Part shown: in pieces, positions 1,483-55,399 of the stretch
Layout: the number at the start of each line of letters is the position of its first letter
Position numbering within the stretch: position 1 is the first letter of the stretch
IMG/VR virus record: IMGVR_UViG_3300027659_000039
Location: 1 to 58,491 of that record
DNA: 58,491 nt
Strand: one strand, 5' to 3'
From: a virus
Made by a program: the position numbers and the translations under genes
Notes under the pieces: generated by a model
What the model saw: the letters and a program-made list of their open reading frames with translations, nothing else
Told to the model about the DNA's origin: nothing
Databases searched by the model: none

Positions 1483-1491
1483 GGAATAGAC

Positions 1492-1930: not shown

Positions 1931-1958
1931 AACATTTTTAACACACTAAGGAATAAAA

Positions 1959-4020: not shown

Positions 4021-4026
4021 TTTGTC

Positions 4027-4284
4027 ATGCGTATGCTCTATGATCGTTATCCGGAATTGCCCTATCGTGCGGCAGCACCGTGGCCCTTTGTGGAATATAA
4101 GGGCAATGTAGATTGGATTGCCAGTGTAGATCTAGTGGAGTCCTGGTTAGAACGATCTGTAGGTCATCATTGGGTACATTGGACTTGGAGCATGTACACA
4201 CTGGATCAGCAGAATCTATGCGGAGTCAGTTTCCTGCATCAGCGTAACTGCACATTATTTTTGCTCAAGTTTGGCACAGTATAA
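4027..4284 (+). CDS. hypothetical protein
   Basis: 85 residues rich in Trp, Tyr and His (for example GHHWVHWTW). No recognised domain. There is no Shine-Dalgarno; the upstream bases are instead a late-promoter-like box. The stop codon is embedded in the TATAAATA box of the next gene, a very tight arrangement that supports both features. Function unknown. Confidence 0.6.
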   Translation: MRMLYDRYPELPYRAAAPWPFVEYKGNVDWIASVDLVESWLERSVGHHWVHWTWSMYTLDQQNLCGVSFLHQRNCTLFLLKFGTV

Positions 4285-4287
4285 ATA
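4280..4287 (+). promoter_or_regulatory. late promoter box, leaderless arrangement, for the gene at 4293
   Basis: A perfect TATAAATA. Its last base is six before the ATG at 4293, so T4-type initiation would begin on the A of the start codon. It overlaps the TAA stop of the preceding gene. Confidence 0.7.
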
Positions 4288-4292
4288 TTATC

Positions 4293-4730
4293 ATGCCCAT
4301 ACAATTAAACTATTCTCTTCCCGTAGCAGGATCTACAGCTGATACACTCGATGTTTGGTCACTAGCACCCGATGATTTTTCAGTGGGAGTACACATTATA
4401 CACATTGAACTAGTTGACTCTCTTGTGGTTAATCAACAAGAGTTTCAGAAGGTTGTTAAGTCTATTACCTATAGAGTTGAGGTCAAGCATATAATTACAG
4501 ACGAAATTCGTGATTTTATAGATACTATGGTATTTGACCCGGACATGATACGTTCAGACTCATTTGTTGAATATGATCAAATTTCCTTGTCCACAGCAAA
4601 AAGATGGATATCGGCTACAACCATTAACAAATGTAATGATCTACAGACTCAGTTTGCCCAGGATATTAACCGTCGAGAAGAAGAGGCCGCTAGACAATCT
4701 CGTATTGTAATACCCAATTGGACCGATTAA
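4293..4730 (+). CDS. hypothetical protein, probably late
   Basis: 145 residues, mixed alpha/beta, acidic, ending in a helical Arg/Glu-rich segment (NRREEEAARQSR). No family recognised. It is read from a perfect late box with no room for a leader. It converges with the nucleotidase gene; the two genes share the palindromic stop TTAA at 4727-4730. Late expression suggests a minor virion or assembly role, which is inference. Confidence 0.65.
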   Translation: MPIQLNYSLPVAGSTADTLDVWSLAPDDFSVGVHIIHIELVDSLVVNQQEFQKVVKSITYRVEVKHIITDEIRDFIDTMVFDPDMIRSDSFVEYDQISLSTAKRWISATTINKCNDLQTQFAQDINRREEEAARQSRIVIPNWTD

Positions 4731-33701: not shown

Positions 33702-34907
33702 ATGCCGCGCTTATCACTTTATAAACCAGAAAAGGGTGCTGATTTCCGATTTCTTGATCGTGTTATAAACGAACAATTTCAAGTTGGCGGAACTGATATT
33801 TTTATACACAAATATCTTGGCCCTGTAAATCCCCAGGAGGGGACTGCTAGTCCGTCTGTTCCTACAAATGACGGTACGATACCGGAATTAGGAATACAAG
33901 ACCTGTTGTTTATGGAAAATCGAGACAGGCATTATTCCCCTGATGTTTATCAGTTACGCGGTATCTATACCATGCAAGATATAGATTTTAATCTTACACA
34001 GTTCGGAATATTTTTACAAAATGACAACATAATGATCACATTCCATCTAAGGGGTACTGTTGATTCATTAGGTCGTAAACTAATGGCGGGGGATGTATTA
34101 GAATTACCGCATCTTAAAGATGAATATGCGTTAGATGATGCTATGGTGGCATTAAAACGATTCTATGTTGTAACTGATGTTACTCGTGCCGCAACAGGAT
34201 TTAGTCAAACTTGGTATCCTCACTTACTAAGAGCAAAGTGTACGCCGTTAGTAGATAGTCAAGAATTTAAAGAAATTTTAGATGCTGATGCAGGTGATGG
34301 CAGCAGTTCATTAAGGGATGTCCTTAGTACCTACAATAAGAGTATTCAAATTAACCAAGCTATTATAGCGCAGGCAGAAGCAGATAGTCCTACTAGCGGA
34401 TTTGACACTAAGAATTTCTTTGTTCTTCCGCTACGAGAAGACGGCAATGTTGACATTGTCGACACCACTTCATTAGATGCTGATGCTAGCACAGAAAATC
34501 AAGTTATGGATGCTAGTGTAGTATTACATAGCCCAAATAAAGATTATTATGTCGGATACTTAACAGGTGACGCTGTCCCTCCAAACGGAGCTCCGTATAC
34601 GTTTGATACCGCATTTCCTTCAAACCCCCTAAACGGGCAATTTCATTTACGAACTGATTTTTTTCCAAATAGATTGTTTAGGTGGGACGGAGTTCGTTGG
34701 ATTAAATTTGAAGATAATGTTCGAATGACTCTTAATAATACAGGCAATGAGGATACTGCAAACGGTGCTCATTATGCAGGTAAAGCAGTTAGACAAACAC
34801 AAAAAGGTACATTTATTAATAATGCATCTACTTCAACAGTTGCCGGCAAGGTAATTAAAGAAAAACAAGCCTTGAGTAAGGCATTAAGACCACAGGCAGA
34901 TAACTAA
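33702..34907 (+). CDS. gp14: neck protein, gp14-like
   Basis: 401 residues (T4 gp14 256). The first ~190 residues (FQVGGTDIFIHKYL, YTMQDIDFNLTQFGIFLQND, DVLELPHLKDEY, SQTWYPHLLRAKCTPLVDSQ) follow the gp14 pattern. The C-terminal half is an extension ending with LFRWDGVRWIKFEDN and a basic tail. Gp14 with gp13 forms the neck that accepts the tail. It is followed by gp15 with a one-base overlap, the T4 order 14-15. Confidence 0.75.
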   Translation: MPRLSLYKPEKGADFRFLDRVINEQFQVGGTDIFIHKYLGPVNPQEGTASPSVPTNDGTIPELGIQDLLFMENRDRHYSPDVYQLRGIYTMQDIDFNLTQFGIFLQNDNIMITFHLRGTVDSLGRKLMAGDVLELPHLKDEYALDDAMVALKRFYVVTDVTRAATGFSQTWYPHLLRAKCTPLVDSQEFKEILDADAGDGSSSLRDVLSTYNKSIQINQAIIAQAEADSPTSGFDTKNFFVLPLREDGNVDIVDTTSLDADASTENQVMDASVVLHSPNKDYYVGYLTGDAVPPNGAPYTFDTAFPSNPLNGQFHLRTDFFPNRLFRWDGVRWIKFEDNVRMTLNNTGNEDTANGAHYAGKAVRQTQKGTFINNASTSTVAGKVIKEKQALSKALRPQADN

Positions 34908-36286
34908 TGGCAGATTTTTTTTATGATGGTCAAGTACGACGATACTTGACACAATTTATGAGGTTAATGAGTAACTTCAGCTATAAGGATGCTAAAGGTA
35001 ATTTAGTAGAAGTTCCTGTTCGCTACGGTGATATGAATCGACAGGTTGCGTCTATTATGAAAAAGAATAGTGAAAATATTATTCAGAGCGCACCATTTAT
35101 TGCCTGTTATATTAAAGACATGCAGTTTGATAGAGATCGATTACAAGATCCAACATTTGTTAGTAAGGTTCAAATAAGAGAACGAGCATATGATGACCAG
35201 GGTAATGAATATCTTAATACGCAAGGAGCTAACTATACCGTAGAAAGAATGATGCCAACTCCCTACCTGGCTACTTTTTCTGCCGATATATGGACCACTA
35301 ACACAGAACAAAAATTACAACTGTGGGAGCAAATTGTTGTATTGTTTAATCCTAGTTTAGAAATACAAACTACAGACAACTATATAGATTGGACCAGTCT
35401 CAGCGTTGTTGAACTAACGGGACAGCAGTTTGAAAGTAGAACAATTCCTCAAGGATTAGAGAGCGATATATCTATTTGTAATTTAAGTTTTTCAGCACCA
35501 ATATGGATTACTCCACCAGCTAAGGTAAAGCAGTTAGGTATTATTACAAAAATTATTACTAATTTACATACTGATCAGCCGGGCACAGTAGCATCAGGAT
35601 CTTATAAAGATATGGGACTAACAGATTTGTTTGCCGGTAGAGTTGCAGATAGTAAGACAGTTGTTTCTCCGGGAAATTATTGCCTATTAGTCATTAACAA
35701 CACCGCAACCTTATTACCATTTAAAGACGGTAATTCAGATGGCATTACTAGTGCATCCGAAATTGCTAATAAAGGGAACTGGAGAAAATTGTTAGATTTA
35801 TATCCTGGCGAATTTAAAGCAGGACTAAGTCAAATACGCCTTATGAAAGTAGACGGCAATGAGGTTGTTTCGTATGTTAGTTTAAATCCAACTGACGACT
35901 CAACAATGGTAATGAACATTGACTCAGATACAATTCCCACCAATACCATAATAGATGGTAGCGGTACAATAGATGCAATTATCAATCCAACAACCTTTAA
36001 TCCATTATCATCTGTCGCCGGTGTTAGATATTTAATATTAGAAGATATTGTAGACGGGGCAGATGCGTGGAGAAATACAGATAATTCTCCATTTATAGCA
36101 TCGGCTAATGATATTGTAAAATGGGACGGCGCATTGTGGACAATAATATTCAATTCAGTTAACGTCACTGATCTCACTTATATAATTAATTCATATACAG
36201 GAATACAGTACAAGTGGGACGGGGAACAATGGACAAAGACATTCGAGGGAGTGTATGATCCGGGCGCTTGGCGTTTAATTTTATGA
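34907..36286 (+). CDS. gp15: tail terminator / sheath stabiliser, gp15-like
   Basis: 459 residues; T4 gp15 has 272. The N-terminal ~230 residues (FFYDGQVRRYLTQFMRLMSN, VPVRYGDMNRQ, YLATFSADIWTTN, FSAPIWITPPAK) match gp15, which caps the tail and joins it to the head. Another ~230 residues follow with two copies of a Trp-Asp-Gly module (VKWDGALWTIIF, YKWDGEQWTKTF), also present once in gp14. Its TGA overlaps the Nudix start by four bases. Confidence 0.82.
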   Translation: MADFFYDGQVRRYLTQFMRLMSNFSYKDAKGNLVEVPVRYGDMNRQVASIMKKNSENIIQSAPFIACYIKDMQFDRDRLQDPTFVSKVQIRERAYDDQGNEYLNTQGANYTVERMMPTPYLATFSADIWTTNTEQKLQLWEQIVVLFNPSLEIQTTDNYIDWTSLSVVELTGQQFESRTIPQGLESDISICNLSFSAPIWITPPAKVKQLGIITKIITNLHTDQPGTVASGSYKDMGLTDLFAGRVADSKTVVSPGNYCLLVINNTATLLPFKDGNSDGITSASEIANKGNWRKLLDLYPGEFKAGLSQIRLMKVDGNEVVSYVSLNPTDDSTMVMNIDSDTIPTNTIIDGSGTIDAIINPTTFNPLSSVAGVRYLILEDIVDGADAWRNTDNSPFIASANDIVKWDGALWTIIFNSVNVTDLTYIINSYTGIQYKWDGEQWTKTFEGVYDPGAWRLIL

Positions 36287-36712: not shown

Positions 36713-37012
36713 TTAAACTAATAAAGTTTTAATTCTAGCGTACATATCTTGGTCAGTCCATGTACCGCGAACTGCTAGATACTCTTCGCCTTCCCATACA
36801 GTAATTCTACGTTCAATATATGGATCTTCGCTGAGTACTAATGTTGCAACCACGGCATTTGAGCGGCCGGATCCTCTAGTAGGATTATTTCCAGTTTCGT
36901 CGTTAGTCCAACCATAGTTTTCTTCAACATGGATAACTTTAAAAGAAGTGGTAGTCTTAGCTTCAGCAGCTGGAACTATTACTATTGGGGTTTCTAATGT
37001 AATGCTTGTCAT
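36713..37012 (-). CDS. hypothetical late protein
   Basis: 99 residues, beta-rich with two conserved-looking motifs (FKVIHVEENYGWTNDETG and YIERRITVWEGEEYLAVRG). No family recognised. It has a late box and a good AAGGAG site, so it is probably made in quantity. A small virion or decoration protein is possible but unproved. It converges with the Nudix gene. Confidence 0.65.
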   Translation of the reverse strand: MTSITLETPIVIVPAAEAKTTTSFKVIHVEENYGWTNDETGNNPTRGSGRSNAVVATLVLSEDPYIERRITVWEGEEYLAVRGTWTDQDMYARIKTLLV

Positions 37013-37075: not shown

Positions 37076-37300
37076 TTAGTCTTTACCAGTAACAATTACG
37101 GCTACTTTATCAACCCAAACAAGTCGTCCATGACAGGCAATATTCCATTTTGTTTCGCCGTATTCATGAGTACATTCTGTAAAAGTTTCGCCAACTAACC
37201 TAACATCAGTGGCCAAATGCTCTACACCGTTTTCAAATATTCGCCAAACTAAATCAGACCCGTTGTGTTTGGTATTGAATCTAATGTGGTATTTGTTCAC
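37076..37300 (-). CDS. small protein at the end of the sugar-modification operon
   Basis: 74 residues, beta-rich with aromatic and His residues (KYHIRFNTKHNGSDLVWRIF, KWNIACHGRLVW). I recall similar short proteins in T4-like cyanophages, annotated hypothetical. Its ATG overlaps the upstream stop by four bases, so it belongs to the operon at 37297-45323. Function unknown. Confidence 0.65.
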   Translation of the reverse strand: MNKYHIRFNTKHNGSDLVWRIFENGVEHLATDVRLVGETFTECTHEYGETKWNIACHGRLVWVDKVAVIVTGKD

Positions 37301-38091
37301 TTCAATCCCAATTCCTTGCGGATTTTTGTAGCACTAATATCTGTTACTGTATCATCAAACGTTTCTTCGCCTGCTGTATAACCCACGCCTCTGCCCCAGC
37401 CGATGTGTACAATGTTAGGAACAACTTGTATTTCGTATTGGCCTTGGTACAATGGATCTAAATCACGTTTGATAAAATTCTTAACCTTTTCTACTTCAAA
37501 TGGATTACTGCCTTGCCAGCCCTGTACGTCACGCACTTGAATAACAACTTGTCCAGTTTTTGCTAGGAGTCTTTCAAATAAGGCACGATGTCCGTCGTGC
37601 CATGGTTGCCAACGTCCCAGCATCTGTACTGTTTCTTTTTTCCAATCAAACGACGGTCTACGGCGATTATCATAAATGTGTGCAAATATAAACTCACTCC
37701 ATTTCTCAGCGTGTTGCTCTGTTATTCTAAAATCATATATTTCAGGCTCAATAAACATTTTATTAGTGTCGGCATATCGACCTTCACGAATAGTATCCAT
37801 CCAAATAGTCCAATCTGCTTTGAAGTTGTTACGCATTTCTATAAGAGGCGCAACGAAATCACAGATAACAAAATCCATATCTGTCATTGAATCTGCTAGA
37901 TCACGCATACGTTTACTTTGACGAATACGACCTTCATGACTAAAGTCCCAGTCATCATATTTTTTACGTACATCGTCAGCATTTAACCAACTTACTCGTT
38001 TTTTTTCATTTTGCAAATGCTCTAATAGATATTGTGCAAGATAAGTTTTTCCGGCACCAGGTAATCCCATAATTAAAATTCTTTGTGGCAT
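37297..38091 (-). CDS. APS-kinase-like / nucleotidyltransferase fusion
   Basis: 264 residues. The N-terminal half is a P-loop kinase with GLPGAGKT at 9-16, then NADDVRKKYDDWDFSHEGR and RQSKRMRDLAD, the pattern of adenylylsulfate (APS) kinase, which makes PAPS. The C-terminal half has GRWQPWHDGH (159-168, the HxGH site) and ends with ISATKIRKEL, the signature of cytidylyl- or adenylyltransferases. A fused kinase plus nucleotidyltransferase could activate sulfate or a sugar phosphate. The kinase substrate is not certain. AAAGGAG lies inside the upstream gene's last codons; a start at 38121 would be out of place. Confidence 0.75.
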   Translation of the reverse strand: MPQRILIMGLPGAGKTYLAQYLLEHLQNEKKRVSWLNADDVRKKYDDWDFSHEGRIRQSKRMRDLADSMTDMDFVICDFVAPLIEMRNNFKADWTIWMDTIREGRYADTNKMFIEPEIYDFRITEQHAEKWSEFIFAHIYDNRRRPSFDWKKETVQMLGRWQPWHDGHRALFERLLAKTGQVVIQVRDVQGWQGSNPFEVEKVKNFIKRDLDPLYQGQYEIQVVPNIVHIGWGRGVGYTAGEETFDDTVTDISATKIRKELGLK

Positions 38092-38092
38092 G

Positions 38093-39505
38093 TTATTCTC
38101 CTTTATACCAAAACCAAACATTGCTTTTTACGTGATATATTTTTGTTTCTATACCGCGTTCTTTTCTAAAATGTTCTACTGCTGCCTTCACTGGGGGTAA
38201 ATTCCAATCGTGGCCAGCAAATATTCCACCTGTTTTAACTTTACACCAATATTTACGCAAGTCTCGAGCTACGGCCGCGTAACTATGATCCCCGTCAATA
38301 AAAATGTAATCTAATTCTTCATTAGGAATTAAATCAGCTGCTTCCCAACTGTCTAATTCTATAAATTCTATTTTATCTTTATAAGGATCTAGCAACTGAT
38401 ATGCGTTAACTTTCCATCTATTAACCATTTCTTGAGTAACCTGCCCCCAATGATCCATATAGGGTTTATATGCATCTATTGCATAAACCTTACTGATAGA
38501 ATCGCTCATGTCAAAGAAATAACGCAAGGTAAAACCAAGACACACACCTAGTTCGCATCCTATTAAATTTCTTCCTAATTTTTCTACATAGGGAAGTAGT
38601 TCAGGAGCAGATACTTGATCCATCGGTACAGGAGTTTGTCTTGCTGTAAGCGGTTCAAGCCTAAAAGATTTTCTAATCAGATTGGTAAAATTATCTAAAT
38701 CGTCTTGATCTAATTGATACTTAACAATTACTTCTCGAGTATTGCCTATCTGCAGACATAAGTTCGCTAGGTCCTCGTTATATTTTTTAGAAAAATATTG
38801 AAAATAATCAGAGTTCCGTTGTTCTATAGATTTCTTATCTTCGTTACCATCCCAGGAACTTTTTCCATGAAAATGTAGAACATAACTATCGTTAGTATAT
38901 AGTGTTTTATATCCTAACTGTGCGGCACGAATTCTATAATCAACATCTTCGCCGCCGACTGGCTTAAATTCTTCATCAAATAACCCTACTGCTTGATAAA
39001 TGTTTCTAGGTATTCTAAACAAATAAAACGCTGTATGAAATCTTTCATAGAATCCAGAGTGTTGGTCTGTGTGAGCCACTGCTACACGACATAGCATTTC
39101 GTAATTATTGTCATATTCTTCCAAGGTCCAAGTGTTGGGAATTTCTGTGTAAGCATGTGTTTGATTACAACTGGGTAAACAAATAATATCATCTGCTTTT
39201 TCTAAACTTTCTCTCCATCCCGGCGTGAATATAATATCGTTATTCATCATAACAAAGTCTAGATCATACTCATTGGCTATCTTCATCATTTGATTTATGT
39301 TAGCCGCAAAACTTTGAGGTGTTTTGTTCTTAATAACATTTAACCAAGGATGGCTTACATCTGTCCAAACATTATCGTTATCAATTAGTGCAAATAGATC
39401 GTTCTCTTTCAGTTGAGTAGTACTAAAAAAACTGTTTAGTGCGTAAGGAGTAAAGTGTGTACTACCTGCACTGGTTATCATTCCAAATAAAGTACCGTTG
39501 CTCAT
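38093..39505 (-). CDS. glycosyltransferase (GT2-like) fused to a SAM methyltransferase
   Basis: 470 residues. The N-terminal ~250 residues are a GT-A glycosyltransferase-like domain (FVMMNNDIIFTPGW as the acidic metal site, VGGEDVDYRIRAAQLGYKT, SYVLHFHGKSS). The last ~170 residues are a class I methyltransferase (IGCELGVCLGFTLRYF, VYAIDAYKPY, DYIFIDGDHSYAAVARDL, GGIFAGHDW). Together they could add and then methylate a sugar. It overlaps the next upstream gene by four bases. Confidence 0.85.
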   Translation of the reverse strand: MSNGTLFGMITSAGSTHFTPYALNSFFSTTQLKENDLFALIDNDNVWTDVSHPWLNVIKNKTPQSFAANINQMMKIANEYDLDFVMMNNDIIFTPGWRESLEKADDIICLPSCNQTHAYTEIPNTWTLEEYDNNYEMLCRVAVAHTDQHSGFYERFHTAFYLFRIPRNIYQAVGLFDEEFKPVGGEDVDYRIRAAQLGYKTLYTNDSYVLHFHGKSSWDGNEDKKSIEQRNSDYFQYFSKKYNEDLANLCLQIGNTREVIVKYQLDQDDLDNFTNLIRKSFRLEPLTARQTPVPMDQVSAPELLPYVEKLGRNLIGCELGVCLGFTLRYFFDMSDSISKVYAIDAYKPYMDHWGQVTQEMVNRWKVNAYQLLDPYKDKIEFIELDSWEAADLIPNEELDYIFIDGDHSYAAVARDLRKYWCKVKTGGIFAGHDWNLPPVKAAVEHFRKERGIETKIYHVKSNVWFWYKGE

Positions 39506-40416
39506 TTTGTAATTGTATTAAAAAAGTTGCTCCACTCATTAGCCCTGCGTTCCCAAGACCAATAGTTATGATAATGATGTGATTGTGCAATTAACTGTTG
39601 CTGGTTGTCTTCATTCCAGTAGTTATTAATAGTTTTTTCTAGTTCTATTGCAAATCTTTCCGCTAAAACTTCCCTATTTGGGCCATGAGGAACGTATGTA
39701 GCCCAGTCATTGCATGTTTCAGGTAGTGCCCCTAGATTAGTTGTAAGTATTTGACAGCCGGCTGTTGCTGCTTCAATTGCAGATAGGCAACTAGTTTCTT
39801 CAAATGTGCTAGGATACGGAAATATATGTGCTTGTTGTACACACGCACGTACAATATCATTGGGCTGGTATTCGTGAAAGTTTACATTTTTTTGTGTGCG
39901 GGCATGATCAAACAACCAATCAAATTGCCCCTGTGTAATTTTTACAAAATTCTCGCCGTAAATCTTTGTACTAGAAAATACATCTAATTCTACATCATCA
40001 CGATCTAGTATCATTAACGATTTAAGTATTACATCTAGGCCACGCCATGGCGTACTAGTATACACTAATTTTAGTTTTCCTGTCTTTGACTTTTCTACAA
40101 ACGGAATAGGTTCTACAGCATTTCTTAACACAATACTTTTATAAGCAGGAACATTAAATTCTTGTTTAAATTTATTAAACTGCCAATGACTTACAAAGAT
40201 AAAATAATCAATTGCTTCAACAAATGTGGGGTCTTTCATGCCTACGCAGATTTCTTCATTAGTGTTTAGGTGTTGCCACACAACATTTATTTTATTGGGG
40301 TCAATTTGTTCGTGAAAACAAAAACTTAAAATTAAATTTATTCGATCACTCCACTCAGACCCAACATGTTTAAGCATGTTAAGATATAGTATCTCGCTGC
40401 CGCCCATTGGTTTCAT
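39502..40416 (-). CDS. glycosyltransferase, GT4-like
   Basis: 304 residues. It starts almost at the GGSE motif (residues 5-8), has STPWRGLDVILKSL (donor-domain start) near 120, and PSTFEETSCLSAIEAATAGC (the EX7E region) near 206. GT-B-fold transferase using a nucleotide sugar; acceptor unknown. The N-terminal domain is short for the family. ATGA overlap with the upstream gene. Confidence 0.85.
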   Translation of the reverse strand: MKPMGGSEILYLNMLKHVGSEWSDRINLILSFCFHEQIDPNKINVVWQHLNTNEEICVGMKDPTFVEAIDYFIFVSHWQFNKFKQEFNVPAYKSIVLRNAVEPIPFVEKSKTGKLKLVYTSTPWRGLDVILKSLMILDRDDVELDVFSSTKIYGENFVKITQGQFDWLFDHARTQKNVNFHEYQPNDIVRACVQQAHIFPYPSTFEETSCLSAIEAATAGCQILTTNLGALPETCNDWATYVPHGPNREVLAERFAIELEKTINNYWNEDNQQQLIAQSHHYHNYWSWERRANEWSNFFNTITK

Positions 40417-41069
40417 AGACTCTCCGCAAACTTCATTAGATTTTCGTATACTCGAACTTTGGGAAGCAACATTTTGTAGATGTGATTTTGTAATTTTTCT
40501 TGTGTTTTTTTACCTTTGCCGGTAAGAACAAGCACCGGAGTTGCTCCTGCTTTTTCAGCCATAACTAAATCTTCTAAACTGTCACCAACATAGGCCCCAC
40601 CTTTAATTTTTGCCCCAGGAATATTATTTTCAGCATGTTTAAAAAGACCTGGATTGGGCTTAGAAAACGGATCGTCTTTGCGACTAGATGTATTATACCA
40701 AATCCCATCAATGCTTGTACAACCTGCTTGTCCTAGTAGATTTAACATGTGTCGGTTACAGTTTTCTACTTCATCTATAGAAACTTTTTTATGACTTATA
40801 CTTGGTTGATCAAATAAGAAGGCAAGTTTATGACCTTTACTACGAATAATTGCAACAGCCTTAAATGCATCTTCAATGGGTATAAACTTATCTGGGCCGT
40901 TAATTATATCATCACATTCACAAACTACACCGTCTCTATCTAACGCAATAAGGTATTTGTCAAATATTGCAGGCATAGTTATAGCTTGTGAAATATTTGG
41001 TTGTACCTGCTGTTGCTGTTGAACAGACAGGTTGCTTTTCATATTTTTATCTACACTAAATCTTCCCAT
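40413..41069 (-). CDS. HAD phosphatase, GmhB-like
   Basis: 218 residues with a short Gln-rich N-terminus (SVQQQQQVQP), then ALDRDGVVCE (nucleophile motif near 42-51), KPNPGLF near 140, and YVGDSLEDLVMAEKAGATP near 160. This matches the HAD-IIIA group containing D-glycero-D-manno-heptose-1,7-bisphosphate phosphatase and histidinol phosphatase. In an operon with a GT9 (heptosyltransferase-type) gene, a heptose or sugar-bisphosphate phosphatase role fits best. The zinc-loop cysteines typical of GmhB are not clearly present. Confidence 0.78.
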   Translation of the reverse strand: MGRFSVDKNMKSNLSVQQQQQVQPNISQAITMPAIFDKYLIALDRDGVVCECDDIINGPDKFIPIEDAFKAVAIIRSKGHKLAFLFDQPSISHKKVSIDEVENCNRHMLNLLGQAGCTSIDGIWYNTSSRKDDPFSKPNPGLFKHAENNIPGAKIKGGAYVGDSLEDLVMAEKAGATPVLVLTGKGKKTQEKLQNHIYKMLLPKVRVYENLMKFAESL

Positions 41070-41072
41070 ATT

Positions 41073-41864
41073 TTACTCGTATAATTTTTTTATATCTTGA
41101 GATATTGACGGTTGTGTCTTATTCATATATCTATTAAGGTGATTACTTCCGTAGGATTTACTTACCGGAGGGGCTAACTGGCCTGGTTGACTGTTATTAG
41201 GATTTGTCCTACGTAACCAATCATCAAAATTTCCTGTATATTTTTTAAATCCGACATGATTGCAGGTAATACCAGTGTCTAGCCAAGTTGTATACCCTAA
41301 TTGTTTTAATTTTCTACACATTAAAATGTCTTCACTAATAATATCACCATTTTCTACAATGACATCAAATATCCATCGACGCTTTTTACCTTGTTCTTTT
41401 TCTTCATATACAGGACTAGCGTCCCATATTGCGTCAACCGCCTTACGACTTAACTTTAAAAATCCAGTGCCTAGTCCTTCTACTGCTAACAATCCCGTAA
41501 CAGGATCACGATCAGCATATGGTTGTAAAACTTTCCCTACATACATTTCTGTATCGCCTTTCTTAGGATAAGTCCCACCTACTACATCTACTGGATAATT
41601 TAACAATCTGTAAAAATGCTCGGGATTCCACTCAATGTCGGCATCGATAAAAATGATATCATCGCAATTCATTTCTCGAACTAGCGCAATAATATCGTTT
41701 CTTGCACGTTGTATTAGCGCATCGTAACTTAACCAGATAGGTAAAATTTCTACGTTCATCTGATCAGATAATTTAATTGTATTCACAAGGCTATGTGTAT
41801 ACCATACATCAACACTTCCGTCATAACACGGAGTACCTATTAACACTCGTCTTTTCTTTTGCAT
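41073..41864 (-). CDS. glycosyltransferase, GT2-like (GT-A fold)
   Basis: 263 residues from the ATG at 41864 (TAATG overlap with the sulfotransferase gene). RRVLIGTPCYDGSVDVWY at the start, RARNDIIALVREMNCDDIIF with the metal site IDADIEW, and GGTYPKKG. The second part has GTGFLKLSRKAVDAI and SEDILMCRKLKQLGYTTWLD, as in GT-A transferases. Substrate unknown. An in-frame GTG at 41876 is less likely. Confidence 0.82.
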   Translation of the reverse strand: MQKKRRVLIGTPCYDGSVDVWYTHSLVNTIKLSDQMNVEILPIWLSYDALIQRARNDIIALVREMNCDDIIFIDADIEWNPEHFYRLLNYPVDVVGGTYPKKGDTEMYVGKVLQPYADRDPVTGLLAVEGLGTGFLKLSRKAVDAIWDASPVYEEKEQGKKRRWIFDVIVENGDIISEDILMCRKLKQLGYTTWLDTGITCNHVGFKKYTGNFDDWLRRTNPNNSQPGQLAPPVSKSYGSNHLNRYMNKTQPSISQDIKKLYE

Positions 41865-42685
41865 TATTCTATCCACAACAGTTGTCTTTTAATATGGTCA
41901 AAGTCAAATTTCCAAAAACTCGAACTTACGTAATTTTCCCAGATATCTGATGGCAATATTGGTTTCCTCTGTTTAAATTCTACCTTCTTGCGAACTGTAT
42001 GTAAGCCCGTAATATTAGCGGCGTCATCAAATTCATCATAGCTGTCTTCAACATTGTTGAAGTCGTGTTCAAACCAAGGTTCGCCAATAAATTGGTAAAT
42101 TGTCTGCATTGTTTCTCTAGGGCGTTTACACAACGCTTCATAATCTACTACACACAACATATCTTTTTCATTACTGAATAGGCCTTGTTTTAAACAAGTT
42201 AGTGGTCCGGTAACATAGCCGCCGTTTCCCTCCATACTCATTAGACTATTACATCTCATATAGACATTAGACATATCCTGATGATTATATAATGCCTTTA
42301 TTGAGTAAGGATTTTTAGCATTTAATTGTTCAAAACTATCTAATATCCAAGGAACGTCTCTAATACATACAATTACTTTACTGTAGGGAAATAAATCTTT
42401 AACCATAGAAGTTTGTGCAGTCCAGGCCCGGTTCGTATTAAAACAAACTTCCGGTTTTCCTTCGTAGAAGTTAGCAAATAATCCTCTAATCAAACCTGCA
42501 CGTTTTTCTATTGGCACTGAAACTTCCATGCCTACTGCGCTGTGTGTTACCTGTAAGAGGTTTCTTGCATAGTCGTGTAATGGGTCACTAATATCTGCAC
42601 AGAATTTAGGATTTTGTTTTAGAATAGCACTGAGCAATGTTGACCCACTGCGTGGTAATCCTGATATAAAATGATATTTTTGCAT
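41864..42685 (-). CDS. PAPS-dependent sulfotransferase
   Basis: 273 residues. FISGLPRSGSTLLSAILKQN at the start is the 5'-phosphosulfate loop of sulfotransferases. VIVCIRDVPWILDSFEQ near 105-121 gives the 3'-phosphate site (Arg...Ser). The C-terminal part is helical. The family moves sulfate from PAPS to sugars, proteins or small molecules. The same operon holds an APS-kinase-like gene that could supply PAPS. One-base overlaps on both sides. A glycan substrate is inferred from the neighbours. Confidence 0.88.
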   Translation of the reverse strand: MQKYHFISGLPRSGSTLLSAILKQNPKFCADISDPLHDYARNLLQVTHSAVGMEVSVPIEKRAGLIRGLFANFYEGKPEVCFNTNRAWTAQTSMVKDLFPYSKVIVCIRDVPWILDSFEQLNAKNPYSIKALYNHQDMSNVYMRCNSLMSMEGNGGYVTGPLTCLKQGLFSNEKDMLCVVDYEALCKRPRETMQTIYQFIGEPWFEHDFNNVEDSYDEFDDAANITGLHTVRKKVEFKQRKPILPSDIWENYVSSSFWKFDFDHIKRQLLWIE

Positions 42686-44388
42686 TATTCTTTCACCAAT
42701 AACTTTCCTATATCTGGTAGATATAGATATTTTATATCAGATCCGATGATTGTGTTAACTGCATCTACTAACGTCTCTACTAACGGATCACCTGCTAGAT
42801 TGAAGCTGGTATTAAACACCATAGGTACACCTGTCTTTTTATAGAATGCTTCAATTAGACGATAATAAAATAAATTGTCTGCCTCATTAACAGTCTGAAC
42901 ACGACATGTTCCGTCTACGTGTGTAACACTAGGAACGTCTCCTATGCGTTTTGCCGACAGGTTAATGGCATACATCATAAAAGGACTAGACTTTAGTCCT
43001 CTCATTTCAAACCATTCGTCTGCATGTTCTTCCATAACGCTGGCTGCAAATGGTCGAAACCATTCGCGACCTTTAACACGATTTACAAAATCTTTGCCGT
43101 CGAGTCTGCGTGGATCAAATAAAATACTACGATTACCTAATGCTCTAGGCCCCCCTTCTGGACGACCATGAAATAACGAAACAATATTACCATTAACTAA
43201 TAGGTCAGCAACATCGTTAATATCCGCAGATTGCGTTTTTATTCCGCTTATTTGTTTTAGTATATTATCTAAAATACTGTAGTTTGGCGCGGCACCTAAA
43301 TAGATATGTTTTAATGGGTTCTTCGGAGCGGTGTTGTTATAAACATACCATCCAAGTTTAGCAAGTCCCATAGCAGTTCCACCGTCGTGACTGATAGGGT
43401 CTACATATAAATTAATATCTTTTAATCTATCTTTATAATAATAGTTTGCCACACAGTTTAATCCGTAGCCGCCTGCAATGACAACATTCTTAATACCTGT
43501 CGAGGCTACCGCATTTTCTATTAGACCACACACCATCTGTTGAGATTCTTGTTGAATTTTCCAAGCAAGATCTCGGTCGATATCTTTTACTTTAGAAAAG
43601 TTGTTGTGCCATTCTTTAGGTTCTTGTGTCCTTTGTAGTGCAGGGAATCTATTTTCATCTATGTTTGAGCCAGCAGGGTACATAGGTAATAGTAAGTTTT
43701 TATTCCCCTTACCTTCCACAAAGAAGTCTGGAATAGTTGCGTTGGCTTTTCCATAAGGTGCAAGCCCCATTGTTTTGCCTGCTTCAATATAACCAAATCC
43801 CAGATAGTGACTGACTGCTTCGTAGGCCTTGGTAATAGTAACAGAGTTATCAAACTCTTGTACACCATTATTAAAATAATCAGTACGACCATCCGAATAT
43901 CGTTTGTACAAGGGTTCAAAATTTACAGGATAAGAACATTTATAAACACTTTCGGTTTCGTATCCACCTACTGTGTTGCCTGTACCGTCTGGTCCGGTAG
44001 TAGTTGAATGAAAACTGCCAGCACCGTCTACTATAACGGCCAGTGCTTCATCAAATCCACTGTTATAAAATGCGCCTGCGGCATGACCTAAGTGATGCTG
44101 ATGCCCCATATTGGTAACTAAAACTTTTGGATTAAATTTACGAACCAATGCTGTATAAGCATCTTCCATAGTCCAGGGTAGTTTACTAAATTCCGGACTG
44201 GTACCGCCTAAAATAAGTTCATCTACGGGATAACTTTGTAAACACTCTAACATTGCTCGGAAAGGATTGCCATCGTATTTCATACGGCTGAGTCTTTCTT
44301 CTTCTGCATAGTAGACAACTTCGCCGTCTACAAGCAAACAAGCAGAACCGTTGTGTCCTGGATTAATGGCTAAAATGTTATATGGCAT
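42685..44388 (-). CDS. carbamoyltransferase (NodU/CmcH/TobZ family)
   Basis: 567 residues, the usual length. The N-terminal Kae1-like part has NPGHNGSACLLVDGEVVY and the metal-binding HQHHLGHAAGAF (about 97-108). The C-terminal YrdC-like part has PEGGPRALGNRSILFDPR, NRVKGREWFRPFAASV and VPMVFNTSFNLAGDPLVET. The family uses carbamoyl phosphate and ATP to put a carbamoyl group on a hydroxyl of a sugar or antibiotic. In this operon the target is probably a glycan. One-base overlaps with both neighbours. Confidence 0.93.
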   Translation of the reverse strand: MPYNILAINPGHNGSACLLVDGEVVYYAEEERLSRMKYDGNPFRAMLECLQSYPVDELILGGTSPEFSKLPWTMEDAYTALVRKFNPKVLVTNMGHQHHLGHAAGAFYNSGFDEALAVIVDGAGSFHSTTTGPDGTGNTVGGYETESVYKCSYPVNFEPLYKRYSDGRTDYFNNGVQEFDNSVTITKAYEAVSHYLGFGYIEAGKTMGLAPYGKANATIPDFFVEGKGNKNLLLPMYPAGSNIDENRFPALQRTQEPKEWHNNFSKVKDIDRDLAWKIQQESQQMVCGLIENAVASTGIKNVVIAGGYGLNCVANYYYKDRLKDINLYVDPISHDGGTAMGLAKLGWYVYNNTAPKNPLKHIYLGAAPNYSILDNILKQISGIKTQSADINDVADLLVNGNIVSLFHGRPEGGPRALGNRSILFDPRRLDGKDFVNRVKGREWFRPFAASVMEEHADEWFEMRGLKSSPFMMYAINLSAKRIGDVPSVTHVDGTCRVQTVNEADNLFYYRLIEAFYKKTGVPMVFNTSFNLAGDPLVETLVDAVNTIIGSDIKYLYLPDIGKLLVKE

Positions 44389-45323
44389 TAGGTACCCTTA
44401 CGCTCGATGTCTTCAACAATTTTATTATAAATTGCGGTTAATTCTTCTTCGTCAAAATCGGACATTCTATCATTGTGACGGTCTGCTAATACACTGTCTA
44501 ATCCTGTAATACGAATAGGGCTGTATTTCTTTGCGCCTTCTTTTTCGATAATTTGGAAATAATCAGGATAGCTGGTATTAATAGGAAATGTACTTCCAAA
44601 GATAACTGTTCCCGGAGTACCTACAGCACGAGCCATATGTTGTCCCACACTGTCTACTCCTACAAAATAATCAGCACATTCAATTAGGGCGGCCCACATG
44701 CGTAGGTCAGTAGTAGGTGGAAGTTTAATTGTGTATGTATCAGTGACAATTTGGAACTGTTGTTCTCCGAAGAATACCATATTATATCTTGCCGCAAGTT
44801 TTTTAGTTAGACTAATATAAGCATCGGGGCTTAGACTGCGACTAGCAGGATCGATTACATCCGCACGATCTAATGTGGCGCCACGGCCGAACGGTTGGAT
44901 AATAATAGTCTTAGATTTCTTTTGCTGTTCTTTAACATCAGCAAGAGTATTTGCGGCCCATTTTTCTTCCGACTTGTTAAATGTAAGACAGGGAGCGACT
45001 AAATCACTGTGGTCTGTGGTCTTATTGATTTCTCGATCAAACCCCTCTACTAGACCAATTTCTTGACGAAAATATGCAGGTAGCCTGTAAGGTTCAGGTG
45101 TAAGAATTTCTTCTGCTTTGCTGACAATATTGTCCCAAAGTCCTTTAGTGTCTGCACCATAGGTACGATCTTGTAGTTCCGGAATACTCCAAAGTAATCC
45201 GTCCCATGCAGGAATAATGATATACCATTCTCTATTCGGGTTAAGTCTATGGTATTTGAGTAATGCAGGTATTGCGGCAATAACACGGCCTGCGCCGCCG
45301 TCGATGTAAATAATTGTTGACAT
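44388..45323 (-). CDS. glycosyltransferase, GT9-like (heptosyltransferase type)
   Basis: 311 residues of GT-B pattern. The N-terminal YIDGGAGRVIAAIPALLKYH resembles the start of heptosyltransferases. FVGVDSVGQHMARAVGTPGT near 223 is the donor-site motif (G-D-S/T-G-xxH-xA-A-G-P). GT9 enzymes add heptose to lipid A core in Gram-negatives. It is the first full-length gene of the operon, downstream of the late box at 45484. Confidence 0.85.
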   Translation of the reverse strand: MSTIIYIDGGAGRVIAAIPALLKYHRLNPNREWYIIIPAWDGLLWSIPELQDRTYGADTKGLWDNIVSKAEEILTPEPYRLPAYFRQEIGLVEGFDREINKTTDHSDLVAPCLTFNKSEEKWAANTLADVKEQQKKSKTIIIQPFGRGATLDRADVIDPASRSLSPDAYISLTKKLAARYNMVFFGEQQFQIVTDTYTIKLPPTTDLRMWAALIECADYFVGVDSVGQHMARAVGTPGTVIFGSTFPINTSYPDYFQIIEKEGAKKYSPIRITGLDSVLADRHNDRMSDFDEEELTAIYNKIVEDIERKGT

Positions 45324-45483: not shown

Positions 45484-45491
45484 TATTTATA
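45484..45491 (-). promoter_or_regulatory. late promoter for the sugar-modification operon
   Basis: A perfect TATAAATA on the minus strand. Predicted start 45478; the GT9 gene begins 155 bases later. This places the ten-gene operon under late control, together with the virion genes. Confidence 0.65.
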
Positions 45492-45511: not shown

Positions 45512-46963
45512 TCATAATCCAAATCGTGATTTAAACGTATTGAAGTTTGTGCTAACTTCACCTGCTGATAAAGCACGATTGTACACTGCAACTTGATTAA
45601 TCCTTGCAGTGGCAAATTCACTGGCATCTGGATCACCACCAACAAAAAACGGCATGGCATCTACTCTCAAATCTGGAGAATCTCCATCTCGCGATCCCAC
45701 TTGTGTGCCATTTACATACAGCTTCATGTTGGCAGTGCCGGCCTGTGTTCCATCGTAAATCACACATATATTCTGCCAGACATTGAGTGTGAACAACTGA
45801 AATATTTCTGCAGGATACATTTCAAATTTTTGGGTGGTTAATTTGTAAAATCTTAAAAGGCTGGTTCCTCTATAGCCCATGAGAACATAACTATCAGAGT
45901 TTGCTACCGGGTAAGTCCATATATTCCATGTGAACGCTGTGGCTGCCGATTGTACTGGTGTTTGATAAGTGAAGCTGGTTCTTTGTGATGCGCCACTTCC
46001 GAAACTAAAATAACTTGCAGCTCCAGCAGATGTATATGCAGGACTATTAACTATTGTACCAGTCCTGCCATTACCACTCAAATCAGTCCAAGTAGTTCCC
46101 GATCCAGAATAACTTGCAACATTTCCTGCATCTAACCAAAGTTGTAATCCGGAGGTGATGAGAGTTGGTACATATGGATCGACTGTTATTATAGTGGGAG
46201 CTTGATAGCTATTGGGTTGTCTCGCCACTATGGCTCCGGTGTTATTCCCTACATCTAATGCATTTATTTTTTTGCCCCATGCACGAACATAGGCAATATC
46301 CCCCCTGAAGAAATTACCAGTGCCTGCACGACTGGCTATATAGGTCCAAGTATTGGCAAATGCCAATCCACTAGTGGTTGCAGATGTAACAGCAGTTATT
46401 GATGTGTTGGTAAAAAATTGAGCAGTAGTAGAACCATTGATAAAAATTTGTCTGCCGGTTGAATCAGATCCGTTGACAAATGTCTCAACAACACTGTTAA
46501 ATGATGTATTTGTATTTGGTGTAAATCCAAACAATCTAGGCCCGTAACCCTGCCATATTGACAGGTAGGTATTGGTCACAGTACTAATATTATTTGCGTT
46601 CATCAGCAGGGTAATACCACCAGTGGCTGTACTACCACCAGTACCCGTAGTTTCATATAATATTTGTGTAGTAGATGTATTAGTAGTCCTGTAACCAATT
46701 TCAATAGTTACCGCTGAGTAAGCATTAAAATTTATAGCAGTGGCACTACGTGCATGTTGATTTGTGCCGTTAAAGGTTAAGTATGTACCAGTAGTTCCAT
46801 TACTGGTATAGGTAGGTGTATTGAATAATGTAAAATTATTTCTATTAGGTGACAAATCATTCCACGTTGATCCGCTACCTGGGTAACTTTTAGGATTAGC
46901 AGCATCTAAATAAAATATTAGATCGCTAACATTAGATAAATTTGGCCCGTCTATTACGCTCAT
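45512..46963 (-). CDS. tail fibre with two LamG-like domains
   Basis: 483 residues. Two concanavalin/LamG-like domains: about 9-255 (begins LIFYLDAANPKSYPGSGSTW, ends NFFRGDIAYVRAWGKKINAL) and about 265-483 (begins GLQLWLDAGNVASYSGSGTT, ends ATARINQVAVYNRALSAG). Each opens with LWLDA/FYLDA and closes with a GxIxxVxxWxxxL strand. Such domains bind sugars at fibre tips. The first domain is closely related to the ones at 49690 and 53352. The gene lies six bases from a small chaperone-like gene. Confidence 0.82.
   Translation of the reverse strand: MSVIDGPNLSNVSDLIFYLDAANPKSYPGSGSTWNDLSPNRNNFTLFNTPTYTSNGTTGTYLTFNGTNQHARSATAINFNAYSAVTIEIGYRTTNTSTTQILYETTGTGGSTATGGITLLMNANNISTVTNTYLSIWQGYGPRLFGFTPNTNTSFNSVVETFVNGSDSTGRQIFINGSTTAQFFTNTSITAVTSATTSGLAFANTWTYIASRAGTGNFFRGDIAYVRAWGKKINALDVGNNTGAIVARQPNSYQAPTIITVDPYVPTLITSGLQLWLDAGNVASYSGSGTTWTDLSGNGRTGTIVNSPAYTSAGAASYFSFGSGASQRTSFTYQTPVQSAATAFTWNIWTYPVANSDSYVLMGYRGTSLLRFYKLTTQKFEMYPAEIFQLFTLNVWQNICVIYDGTQAGTANMKLYVNGTQVGSRDGDSPDLRVDAMPFFVGGDPDASEFATARINQVAVYNRALSAGEVSTNFNTFKSRFGL
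46275..46336. repeat. 62-base exact repeat, copy 1 (fibre gene)
   Basis: Identical to 49149-49210. Both copies encode the end of a LamG-like domain (the RAGTGNFFRGDIAYVRAWG part). Exact identity of coding DNA suggests a recent copy or gene conversion between fibre genes. Confidence 0.9.
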
Positions 46964-46968
46964 AACAA

Positions 46969-47142
46969 TTATTGAGCTAGTTGCTCTTCGGTGGGTTGTG
47001 GTAAAGTTGGATGGTTCCAGCTCTCAATAAAAGCGCCACGACCGTCATTGTTGTCAACTAACACGATTGTACCCCGCCTTGGACTAAAATCCTCAATAGT
47101 TAATTCTGGATAAATGGTTAAGATTTTTTCAAATAATGACAT
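46969..47142 (-). CDS. 57-residue tail-fibre assembly chaperone-like protein
   Basis: A small gene of 57 residues. MSLFEKILTIYPEL at the start and VDNNDGRGAFIESWNHPTLP then QPTEEQLAQ at the end match short proteins that follow fibre genes in many phages (XkdW or tail-assembly chaperone type). Its ATG overlaps the C1q-like gene's stop (TAATG), and six bases separate it from the LamG fibre gene. It probably helps fold or attach a fibre. Confidence 0.75.
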   Translation of the reverse strand: MSLFEKILTIYPELTIEDFSPRRGTIVLVDNNDGRGAFIESWNHPTLPQPTEEQLAQ

Positions 47143-47903
47143 TAGGGTCTCACGTAAAATGCTTGGAAATATGTACCAGCTTGGGCTGCAGAAGTATTTA
47201 AAGCAGTAGAAGAGTAGCCAAATATTTCAATGTAATCAGTACTGCCATTTAGATTTACTAATGCTGATACAACTGTAGAGTAACAGGTTCCGCCAATGTC
47301 TGCGCCAGCTTTAATTGCAGTTCCGTTCCTTCTTATGACTATATACCCTTCGGTAACTCCTGCGGCAAACGCAATGCTGGCATTAACTTGATACCATCCT
47401 GCTATCAGAGGTTGATATCTGTAGTTGGTAGTGTTATCGTAAGCGTTGGTAGAATCTGCCTCTTTGACTTGGAAAGCTACTTTGGTGTAGGAGGCCGCAC
47501 CTAATGCAGTTACAGAGTTTTGATAAGCACTGAATGCGGGCATACCATAGGATAACACGGGGCCGCCTACTGACAGTACAGTGGCATTAGTTGTAGTGTT
47601 GGTACTTGTTCCAATCCATACAGCACCGTTGTATTGTCCCAATTTTAATAAACCGTTGTCTAACAACTCAATACTAGGAATACCAGAAATGTCATTGACA
47701 CTAAAAAGTGTGCCAGTATTAGTATCAATAATACTCATTAATTGTCCAACACCGCCTTCAATACTTATGGGGCCTGTGTCTAGTACTTTAAAAGTAATGG
47801 TACTTACAGATGCAGTTGCAGACCCGCCAGTAAATTTAATGGTCGGTTGTCCGCTAGTACCTGTAGCTGGTGTTATTACAATATTTTTATCGCCTAGTGC
47901 CAT
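47142..47903 (-). CDS. tail-fibre protein with C1q-like C-terminal domain
   Basis: 253 residues. The N-terminal ~115 residues are beta-rich repeat-like (KFTGGSATASVSTITF, ISGIPSIELLDNGLLKLGQY). The C-terminal ~135 residues form a C1q/TNF-like jelly roll: PAFSAYQNSVTALG at its start, YQPLIAGWYQVNASIAFAAG in the middle, TYFQAFYVRP at the end. Such domains trimerise and bind ligands at fibre ends. It has a late box, with GAGAATAAC ahead of the ATG. Confidence 0.82.
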   Translation of the reverse strand: MALGDKNIVITPATGTSGQPTIKFTGGSATASVSTITFKVLDTGPISIEGGVGQLMSIIDTNTGTLFSVNDISGIPSIELLDNGLLKLGQYNGAVWIGTSTNTTTNATVLSVGGPVLSYGMPAFSAYQNSVTALGAASYTKVAFQVKEADSTNAYDNTTNYRYQPLIAGWYQVNASIAFAAGVTEGYIVIRRNGTAIKAGADIGGTCYSTVVSALVNLNGSTDYIEIFGYSSTALNTSAAQAGTYFQAFYVRP

Positions 47904-47920
47904 GTTATTCTCATTTTAAT

Positions 47921-47928
47921 TATTTATA
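47921..47928 (-). promoter_or_regulatory. late promoter for the C1q-like fibre operon
   Basis: A perfect TATAAATA on the minus strand; predicted start 47915, a 12-base leader with GAGAA before the ATG at 47903. Confidence 0.75.
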
Positions 47929-47974
47929 TCTTGGTTATCTTGATATATCCGCTTGCAGTCATGTTAAAGTGTCC

Positions 47975-49648
47975 TCAACCTAGAAAGGTTATTTTAATGT
48001 ATCCATTACTATTATTAAATGATCCTATGTTAGTTACAGATGATCCATTAAATGTACCAGATGTGTTATATACACCATCACTGGTTGCTACAGCGGTTGC
48101 AGAAGAATCAATATATGAACCCCCACCTATACCTGCGAGATAACTACCGCCCAAACTAGTCTGCCCTCCATGACCTCCTGAATAACCACCGCCGCCACCA
48201 CCTGAATTGTTTCCAAGATGCCCACCACCGCCACCTCCAAAACCACCTGATGCGTTATAACCCGAGAGGTTCATAAAACCGCCAATAGCATACCATGTTC
48301 CTGCCGCATTATCTACAGATCCGCCTATGAACGATGCTCCATGTGTACTGATTTGTCCACCATTTGAATCTGTTGCCGAAACTGCAGATCCAACATTACC
48401 ACTGTAGGGTTGTCCTGCGGTAAGTAGTCCACCACCCCCACCACCATGATATCCACTACCACCCCCACCTAATGCGGGATTGGTACCAAGAACAAGTGGA
48501 GAATAACTATAGCCATCCCATCGTGGTTGTTCTCGAGTTTGACCATTAACAATTGCCTGTGTAGTAATACTGCTATAAGATCCAGCGCCACCACCAGCAA
48601 TTATGATAGGAGTACTTGTGCCCTGCAACACAACAAAACTTCCGCCGCCACCGCCAGCCATTGTGACGCCAGAGTTAGTACTTGGACTACTAGAGATGTT
48701 TACGCTACTACCTGCAATTTGTCCAACCACCATTTCTAACTTATTAGCAGTACTTAATATAAAGTTTCCACGTACTATTGCGCCACGCCCATGACTGTCA
48801 GACGTGGAACCCCAATTACCTCTGCCACCAGCAACTTCAATTTCGTAAATTCCGTTTGTTGGTGGTTGCCAAACCTGATACCCTTGTGCTCGACCCTGTG
48901 AAAAGAAAGCTGCATTACTAGTCCAAGTTTGTGCAGCATAGGTTGCGTCTGCCTGAAGCGAAGCAAATGTTGGTCCAAATCGTCCGCATAGTCCAGCTGA
49001 AGTAAATGTAAATGTAGTAAACGGATACAGAGGAGGGGCAATAACGGATGGATCACTACTTAAGATTGTAGACCCGGCGTAAGAGGTCGGTTGCCTCGCT
49101 ACTATAGCTGATACATTGCTTCTTACATCTAATGCATTTAATTTTTTACCCCATGCACGAACATAGGCAATATCCCCCCTGAAGAAATTACCAGTGCCTG
49201 CACGACTGGCCACATAAGTCCATGTATTGGCAAATGCACCCAATACTCCAGTAACACCACTTGTTGCAGTAAAAGAAATCTGACCAGTCCCAGCAGTAAA
49301 AGTTGTTATGTTGTATCCTGCTACACTGGAAGAATCTGTTGTAAAGGTAAGTCCGCCCCCTGGATTGGAGATAGTAACACTATTTGAATATTTGAGGATA
49401 ACAACACCTGAACCACCAGCACCGGATGATCCTTGTAAATTTCCAGCGTCAGTGTAGCCGTTTCCACCTCCTCCGCTACCAGTATTTGGCGTTCCGCCAG
49501 TTGCATTTAATCCGTTGCGACCTCCATTGCCGCCAATGCTTGAACCGCCTGTTCCAGCTGTTCCTGTGCCACCAAGTTGATAAGCGCCTCCTCCACCACC
49601 GGCTGCACGGGTAACACTTGATCCTGTGATTGAGTTGGCTGTGCCCAC
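47975..49648 (-). pseudogene. C-terminal part of a frameshifted glycine-rich tail fibre
   Basis: Its frame is open well upstream of 49648: reading up to the duplication at 49747-49828 gives continuous glycine-rich sequence (GAGTAFAGGGGGGAGSVG) with no stop, and the nominal start is a GTG without a ribosome-binding site. It is therefore the continuation of the gene at 49690-51642, put out of frame by the 41-base duplication. It contains the end of a LamG-like domain (FANTWTYVASRAGTGNFFRG) and a long Gly-rich domain (GGGGGSFVVLQGTSTPIIIAG) typical of phage fibres. Confidence 0.85.
49149..49210. repeat. 62-base exact repeat, copy 2 (fibre gene)
   Basis: Identical to 46275-46336 in the LamG fibre gene. 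Confidence 0.9.
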
Positions 49649-49689
49649 CCCGCCGCCGCCGGCGGTTGTGGTACCTGATGCAGATATTC

Positions 49690-51642: not shown

Positions 51643-51645
51643 ATA

Positions 51646-53352: not shown

Positions 53353-53362
53353 TCGCTACTCC

Positions 53363-55378: not shown

Positions 55379-55399
55379 CTAATATATTCCGATCTAAAA

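Follow-up and report, generated by a model that had tools for sequence, protein, structure and literature searches.

Why would a phage carry a row of sugar-modifying enzymes beside the genes for its tail fibres and neck, and what would such enzymes decorate? The question is raised by a 58,491-base fragment of a freshwater, T4-like myovirus infecting bacteria (IMG/VR record IMGVR_UViG_3300027659_000039; this whole stretch is hereafter the window). At positions 37076-45323 of the minus strand, nine tightly packed open reading frames (ORFs) form an operon with tail-fibre genes on one side and neck genes on the other. Our data support an operon for glycan modification that is conserved and under selection, and in which the carbamoyltransferase (CARB) and the sulfotransferase (SULF) retain their catalytic motifs. 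With confidence a little better than even, we read it as a late phage operon whose products build a short glycan and decorate it, probably on virion fibres, in which a two-domain protein (KIN-NT, a kinase joined to a nucleotidyltransferase, NT) secures the sulfate donor, 3'-phosphoadenosine 5'-phosphosulfate (PAPS), made from adenosine 5'-phosphosulfate (APS).

Gene content, conservation and selection

In transcription order, the nine ORFs are as follows.

44388..45323, minus strand: GT9-fold glycosyltransferase-like protein, core gene 1, phrog_8954 (Pfam GT9, E 4e-8, 33.3 bits, cut-off 22)
42685..44388, minus strand: NodU/TobZ-type O-carbamoyltransferase, CARB, core gene 2, phrog_1601 (Pfam N domain 2e-21, C domain 4e-57)
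41864..42685, minus strand: PAPS-dependent-type sulfotransferase, SULF (Pfam Sulfotransfer_3, PF13469, 2e-15, 58.4 bits, cut-off 27)
41073..41864, minus strand: GT-A-type glycosyltransferase with a TPCYDG / DAD motif, kept in relatives (phrog_1574 8e-24; weak Pfam GT2/GT-A match)
40413..41069, minus strand: HAD-IIIA GmhB-like phosphatase with a Q-rich N-terminal tail (NCBIfam PRK08942 2e-25; alignment)
39502..40416, minus strand: GT4 glycosyltransferase (Pfam Glycos_transf_1 3e-10; alignment)
38093..39505, minus strand: fusion of a GT2-like N half and an S-adenosylmethionine-dependent methyltransferase (Pfam Methyltransf_24 7e-14; alignment)
37297..38091, minus strand: KIN-NT, an APS-kinase-fold kinase (residues 1-145) and a compact HxGH nucleotidyltransferase (residues 146-264) (Pfam APS_kinase 9e-12; NadM-like NT)
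37076..37300, minus strand: 74-residue protein with no assigned function (no match in Pfam, PHROG or NCBIfam)

The successive junctions measure -1, -1, -1, +3, -4, -4, +1 and -4 bases, minus denoting overlap. An earlier reading of the DNA alone, the original prediction, had described nine consecutive minus-strand ORFs joined by tiny overlaps or gaps, and all were located exactly as claimed; the gene families it had named agree with profile searches of Pfam, PHROGs and NCBIfam.

We looked for the same gene set in other phage genomes and found it. The order GT9-CARB-SULF-GTA-(HAD)-GT4-(GT2)-kinase is repeated in loci L089-L101, L018, L022 and L027, running from fibre to NUDIX/neck genes on independent contigs, the longest of 355 kb. 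Identity to these relatives is ~83% for the GT9-like protein and mostly 70-76% for CARB and SULF, compared with ~62-72% for the neck proteins and mostly 51-58% for the sheath, so that the first three operon products are conserved at least as well as the neck and better than the sheath. Purifying selection acts strongly on all eight named enzymes: the proportion of nonsynonymous differences (pN) lies at 0.1-0.3 in most enzyme genes and reaches at most 0.45 where the GTA, GT2 and kinase genes compared are most distant, with synonymous differences (pS) near saturation. Related operons additionally carry genes for a DegT aminotransferase, a GDP-mannose-dehydratase-like protein and further GT4 enzymes, which marks the operon as one of sugar biosynthesis. 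A near-identity search of the operon DNA against phage records gave no match, and a literature search found no papers on phage sulfotransferase-carbamoyltransferase operons.

The GmhB-like phosphatase has its motif II Thr replaced, and the GT4 N-terminus is short here and in most relatives. The methyltransferase half of the fusion occurs only in the window and L098, while L089, L097 and L101 carry the GT2 half alone. Of 80 viral KIN-NT loci, 10 have the 74-residue protein next to KIN-NT, at 84-89% conservation. As a separate observation, the phosphatase and its relatives (L204, L207, L210 and L234) all begin with a conserved MGR(F/Y)S and have a tail rich in Q/P, and in L204 and L234 the catalytic motifs are lost.

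The viral core pair and the sulfotransferase

A sequence search of the PDB with the GT9-like protein gave no match. Its AlphaFold2 model (predicted local distance difference test score, pLDDT, 95) best matched GT9 heptosyltransferases at Z 20-24; it shares the GT-B fold of WaaC, WaaF and TibC over 252-280 residues, at only 12-16% identity. TibC is a heptosyltransferase that O-heptosylates an adhesin. Profile and model agree that both the GT9 fold and the C-terminal donor-site motif are present. What speaks against catalysis is the loop GGAGR, in which Arg13, invariant among 11 and among 38 homologues, stands where WaaC carries its active-site Asp, D13. The structure search also returned GT9-fold proteins of the chloroplast NDH-PSI complex, so the fold alone is no proof of activity. 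Because the usual Asp is absent, it is safer to say that this protein may work like a GT9 enzyme than that it is one.

For CARB, the Kae1-like N and YrdC-like C domains are above the Pfam cut-offs (193 and 77 bits vs. 27 and 24), and PDB profile searches matched TobZ, GdmN and NovN-type (novobiocin) enzymes at 1e-46 to 2e-52. The protein resembles NodU, TobZ and WapO in its full-length Pfam matches and in PDB matches of 1e-46 or better, and belongs to a phage clade; once viral-looking contigs are set aside, its best cellular homologues are ~35% identical. The putative metal residues H98, H102, D121 and D335, which we take to be the HxxxH, D, D site of TobZ, are invariant in 9 homologues, as are the putative phosphate residues. 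In SULF, the 5' phosphosulfate loop GLPRSGSTLL and the R109..S117 region are conserved in 20 homologues, with G9, R12, S13, G14, R109 and S117 invariant. The alignments thus show the catalytic motifs kept in both enzymes; for SULF, a lack of catalytic residues would have counted against the original prediction. The nearest profile matches of SULF are TPST and CurM; the region aligned, weakly, to the TPST catalytic Glu reads D/S/N with no Glu, and a TPST-like function is not supported.

The first two genes travel together. The CARB profile search returned more than 580 stretches in viruses and 225 in cellular genomes, from which 79 viral and 80 cellular loci were examined. GT9 lies directly upstream of CARB in 74 of the 79 viral loci vs. 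3 of the 80 cellular ones, and the three exceptions are short contigs of viral type in metagenome-assembled genomes. The pair is therefore essentially a viral unit. These contigs (L106, L107 and L108), labelled archaeal or gammaproteobacterial, are probably misbinned phage contigs.

Among ten proteins tested from upstream of the viral pair, six match virion or tail families in PHROG, a seventh does so weakly, and one is a halogenase. The presence of a large upstream ORF was dropped as a test of fibre linkage, since viral and cellular loci were not discriminated by it (41/56 vs. 40/63). The tryptophan-halogenase-type gene lies at L253, 4030-5667. It would suit an operon product that is a diffusible small molecule, a carbamoylated and sulfated sugar or amino-acid metabolite comparable to that of the S-SSM6a carbamoyltransferase/halogenase cluster, and such a system has been inferred around phage carbamoyltransferases (PMC7824862). 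However, Pfam and PHROG searches recognised neither a halogenase nor an oxygenase in the window operon, and its several glycosyltransferases and fibre-neck placement better suit a macromolecular target; we consider a diffusible product improbable.

KIN-NT and its link to sulfate activation

The kinase half of KIN-NT scores 45.7 bits against the Pfam APS_kinase profile (cut-off 21.1). Its AlphaFold2 model matches APS kinases at Z 16-19 (at Z 18.8, root-mean-square deviation ~2.2 over 143 residues), and the next fold, gluconate kinase, at Z 15. Like the APS kinase CysC, it has the P-loop and most APS-site positions: D39, R42, F50 and R55 are invariant in 28 sequences and presumably equal the APS-site residues D63, R66, F75 and R80 in Penicillium chrysogenum numbering, as judged from sequence and general knowledge of the family. 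Kinase first and nucleotidyltransferase second is also the order of PAPS synthetase (PAPSS). Unlike CysC and PAPSS, KIN-NT has no KKAR lid and no FISP Ser, Gln replaces N83, and its NT of ~119 residues is NMNAT-like rather than Sat-like (NMNAT, nicotinamide mononucleotide (NMN) adenylyltransferase; Sat, ATP sulfurylase). The replacements themselves, A81, Q58 and GR(Y/F)xDTN, are nearly invariant in the phage family. A check of catalytic residues in this P-loop protein, which the original prediction had called for, thus came out divided, with four APS-site residues kept and three canonical motifs altered. We think it likely, from sequence and model, that the kinase half works like an APS kinase, a wording chosen because those three motifs depart from canonical APS kinases.

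Judged by eye alone, GR(D/G)xG and ISATKIRK in the NT half resemble Sat motifs. When aligned with one Sat by hhalign, only the ISxTKIRK end was matched, at a probability of 36%, and for residues 145-264, a poorly modelled region, VIA-align listed no match. The NT half is a candidate sulfurylase.

Genomic context is more informative. Relatives of KIN-NT occur in more than 500 viral stretches, and the best 80, which we examined, are 77-89% identical. Their contexts are unrelated to one another, with replication, deaminase, pterin or radical-SAM genes adjoining. As most loci lack a nearby sulfotransferase, KIN-NT was initially judged unrelated to sulfation; it would phosphorylate and then nucleotidylate a small molecule, as in sugar-nucleotide or NAD-type salvage, and its place in this operon would be due to chance or to a need for nucleotide sugars. 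The resemblance of the NT half to NMN adenylyltransferases and the varied neighbours of the many viral copies both fit such a role.

Four observations led us to revise that view: co-occurrence with SULF, the constancy of the kinase, the DUF2061 context and a bacterial operon. First, viral GT9-CARB loci were fetched via CARB and hence without bias for either the kinase or SULF. The kinase was present in 11 of 20 loci with SULF and in 0 of 57 without it; after dereplication the counts were 10 of 15 and 0 of 38 (Fisher 1.5e-7, uncorrected for relatedness, the SULF-bearing loci being a related group). Second, the kinase domain stays the same from one operon relative to the next and its partner varies, being a fused NT, a separate NT (L095), DUF2061 or none (L089, L096), so that several SULF operons keep the kinase without the NT. 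Third, DUF2061 is fused or adjacent to the kinase in 10 of 23 operon loci (fused in L092, L093 and L095, adjacent elsewhere), and is adjacent in 23 of 80 other loci. In bacteria this domain is a partner in sulfate assimilation: it occurs in CysN-CysC-DUF2061 (L287) and CysN-DUF2061 (L286) fusions, CysN being called by reading the sequence, and an Arcobacter DUF2061 gene (L270) is flanked by a cysK-like gene and cysH. DUF2061, whose function is not assigned, was also seen in the sulfate-assimilation operons L301 and L319-L322.

The fourth observation comes from one alphaproteobacterial order, in which five of six genomes have the kinase and NT as adjacent final genes of a sulfate-assimilation operon. 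The gene order is SUMT - sulfite reductase - CysH - DUF2061 - KIN - NT (SUMT and sulfite reductase identified by eye), and the kinase and NT are 45-50% identical to those of the window. The CysH of this operon carries CC/CxxC motifs, as APS reductases do, which implies that APS must be made in these bacteria. No CysD was found in the five operon-bearing genomes, two weak matches being CysH itself, and no second APS kinase was found in G087, the one genome tested. The only Sat seen among the five lies at L323, 1793-2857, in a NeuB/ATP-grasp glycan cluster apart from the assimilation operon; in the other four, searches turned up no known ATP sulfurylase.

Taken against these observations, a role of KIN-NT outside sulfation seems to us unlikely, and PAPS supply by KIN-NT is better supported than the original prediction could see. 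More tentatively, KIN-NT may be a compact sulfate-activation enzyme, in which the ~119-residue HxGH NT would be an ATP sulfurylase not recognised before and would, joined to the divergent APS kinase, form a PAPS synthetase of 264 residues, widespread in phages, replacing Sat/CysDN in one bacterial order and here supplying a fibre-sulfating operon. Several findings count against a sulfate-activating KIN-NT. The kinase lacks the KGLYKKAR lid, the FISP Ser and N83. The profile match of the NT half is to NMN adenylyltransferase (E 3e-7 to 2qjt, profile residues 12-67 only), and a PDB profile search gave no Sat match. About 84% of KIN-NT loci have no recognisable sulfotransferase within 10 kb, a wider search adding only weak PRSGT proteins (L014, L038-L042), and 5 of the 15 dereplicated SULF-bearing CARB loci lack the kinase. 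The bacterial genomes with the operon may be incomplete. Finally, a search of 12 related phage contigs gave no ATP sulfurylase, and a full phage-encoded PAPS pathway with a classical sulfurylase was rejected.

Timing, target and known relatives

Three features around the operon bear on when it is expressed and what it may act on.

45512..46963, minus strand: LamG-type fibre/virion protein, upstream (PHROG virion structural match 5e-15)
45484-45491, minus strand: T4-type late promoter box TATAAATA, ~160 bases before the first start codon of the operon
34907..36286, plus strand: tail-sheath-stabiliser-like neck protein (phrog_11196 4e-90, phrog_227 8e-24)

PHROG matches verified the predicted position between neck genes and tail fibres, with LamG/fibre-type virion proteins upstream, at 45512-58261, and NUDIX, tail-sheath-stabiliser, neck proteins, adaptor, dNMP kinase and sheath downstream. 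The perfect late box reported before the operon is indeed there and is well placed: 5 of its 6 copies in the window lie at most 200 bases upstream of a correctly oriented gene, compared with 24% for permuted words. The box is not enriched (6 copies seen vs. 7 expected), and as an enriched word it was rejected. Among relatives the exact box was found only in L090, which weighs against late timing; since its position is not conserved, late expression of the operon is no more than plausible.

We infer the activities, substrates, timing and target of the system as follows. Three or four cytosolic glycosyltransferases (GT9-like, GT-A, GT4 and GT2) would assemble the sugars, the NodU-type enzyme would attach O-carbamoyl groups, the sulfotransferase would transfer sulfate from PAPS, and the methyltransferase may attach methyl groups. 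The kinase half of KIN-NT would convert APS to PAPS, and the NT half would probably assist APS formation. The glycan most likely ends up on virion fibres, via cytosolic protein O-glycosylation. The original prediction of a sulfated, carbamoylated glycan on fibres or lipopolysaccharide (LPS) is partly supported by a glycan operon that has CARB, SULF and a link to sulfate activation. Virion fibres are the favoured target, host LPS a possible one and DNA an unlikely one.

The same enzymes could instead act on the host surface, adding carbamoyl and sulfate to the LPS core or O-chain late in infection and so blocking superinfection or progeny re-adsorption. LPS heptosyltransferases belong to family GT9, LPS is known to be substituted with carbamoyl on its heptose (WapO of Pseudomonas, PMC8005017), the GT9-CARB pair of cyanophage P-SSM2 adjoins heptose kinase/adenylyltransferase and GmhA-like genes, and host-surface change has been proposed for pseudolysogeny (PMC7824862, PMC2984593). 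However, many viruses place GT9-CARB between their fibre and neck genes, Pfam and PHROG scans recognised no lipid-carrier transferase, flippase or ligase in the operon, and a surface change after late expression would be of little use to a lytic phage. We regard a host-surface target as rather unlikely, and favour a virion protein over LPS because of the fibre-neck placement and the all-cytosolic enzymes.

Phage glycosyltransferases often modify hydroxymethylated DNA, and the glycan could by analogy be placed on phage DNA as a base hypermodification. In three relatives larger than 320 kb, however, we found a single canonical-looking thymidylate synthase and no second gene of that family (a hydroxymethylase), and the neighbourhood is late and structural, whereas DNA-modifying genes are usually early; a DNA target is very improbable.

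The closest known systems are the 'LPS' clusters of the cyanophages P-SSM2, S-SSM7 and S-SM2, also T4-like myoviruses with a GT9-like gene directly before CARB near tail-fibre genes. These clusters have been termed LPS biosynthesis, with unclear function since P-SSM2 (PMC3037559), and superinfection exclusion is one possible role (PMC3037559, PMC2984593, PMC7824862). The window proteins are 34% (GT9-like) and 44% (CARB) identical to those of P-SSM2. Unlike the cyanophage clusters, the window operon is without HldE, GmhA and PfkB, and no sugar kinase or isomerase is among its nine genes by Pfam, PHROG and NCBIfam; it also sits in a different position, on the neck side. It has a sulfotransferase and a sulfate-activation-type kinase, and the P-SSM2 cluster has neither there. 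The contig of marine virus AG-345-O18 (MH319759) shares GT9-CARB-HAD (52%, 52% and 40% identity) and has a related sulfotransferase, but this lies ~9 kb off and no kinase was found.

Two observations concern other parts of the window. Positions 1-4700 have a GC content of ~0.49, vs. 0.35-0.43 in most of the remainder, and small plus-strand genes; this is either a different module or a chimeric join. Just past the operon end, a gene for 99 residues (36713-37012) evolves fast relative to its neighbours, with a nonsynonymous to synonymous rate ratio (dN/dS) of ~0.3-0.7.

The locus is thus a conserved glycan operon of the cyanophage 'LPS' kind, and what is new is the combination of a sulfotransferase with a sulfate-activation-type enzyme. 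GT9-CARB, which adjoins fibre genes, is strongly selected and is essentially confined to viruses, bears on the function of phage 'LPS' clusters. The link of KIN-NT to sulfate assimilation proposes a concrete function for a gene family that hundreds of phages carry. KIN-NT-type kinases, in which several canonical APS-kinase motifs are absent, may be the 'cysC' of virome papers. Should the NT half indeed make APS, we know of no smaller ATP sulfurylase, and KIN-NT is a lead to an unrecognised family of sulfate-activating proteins.

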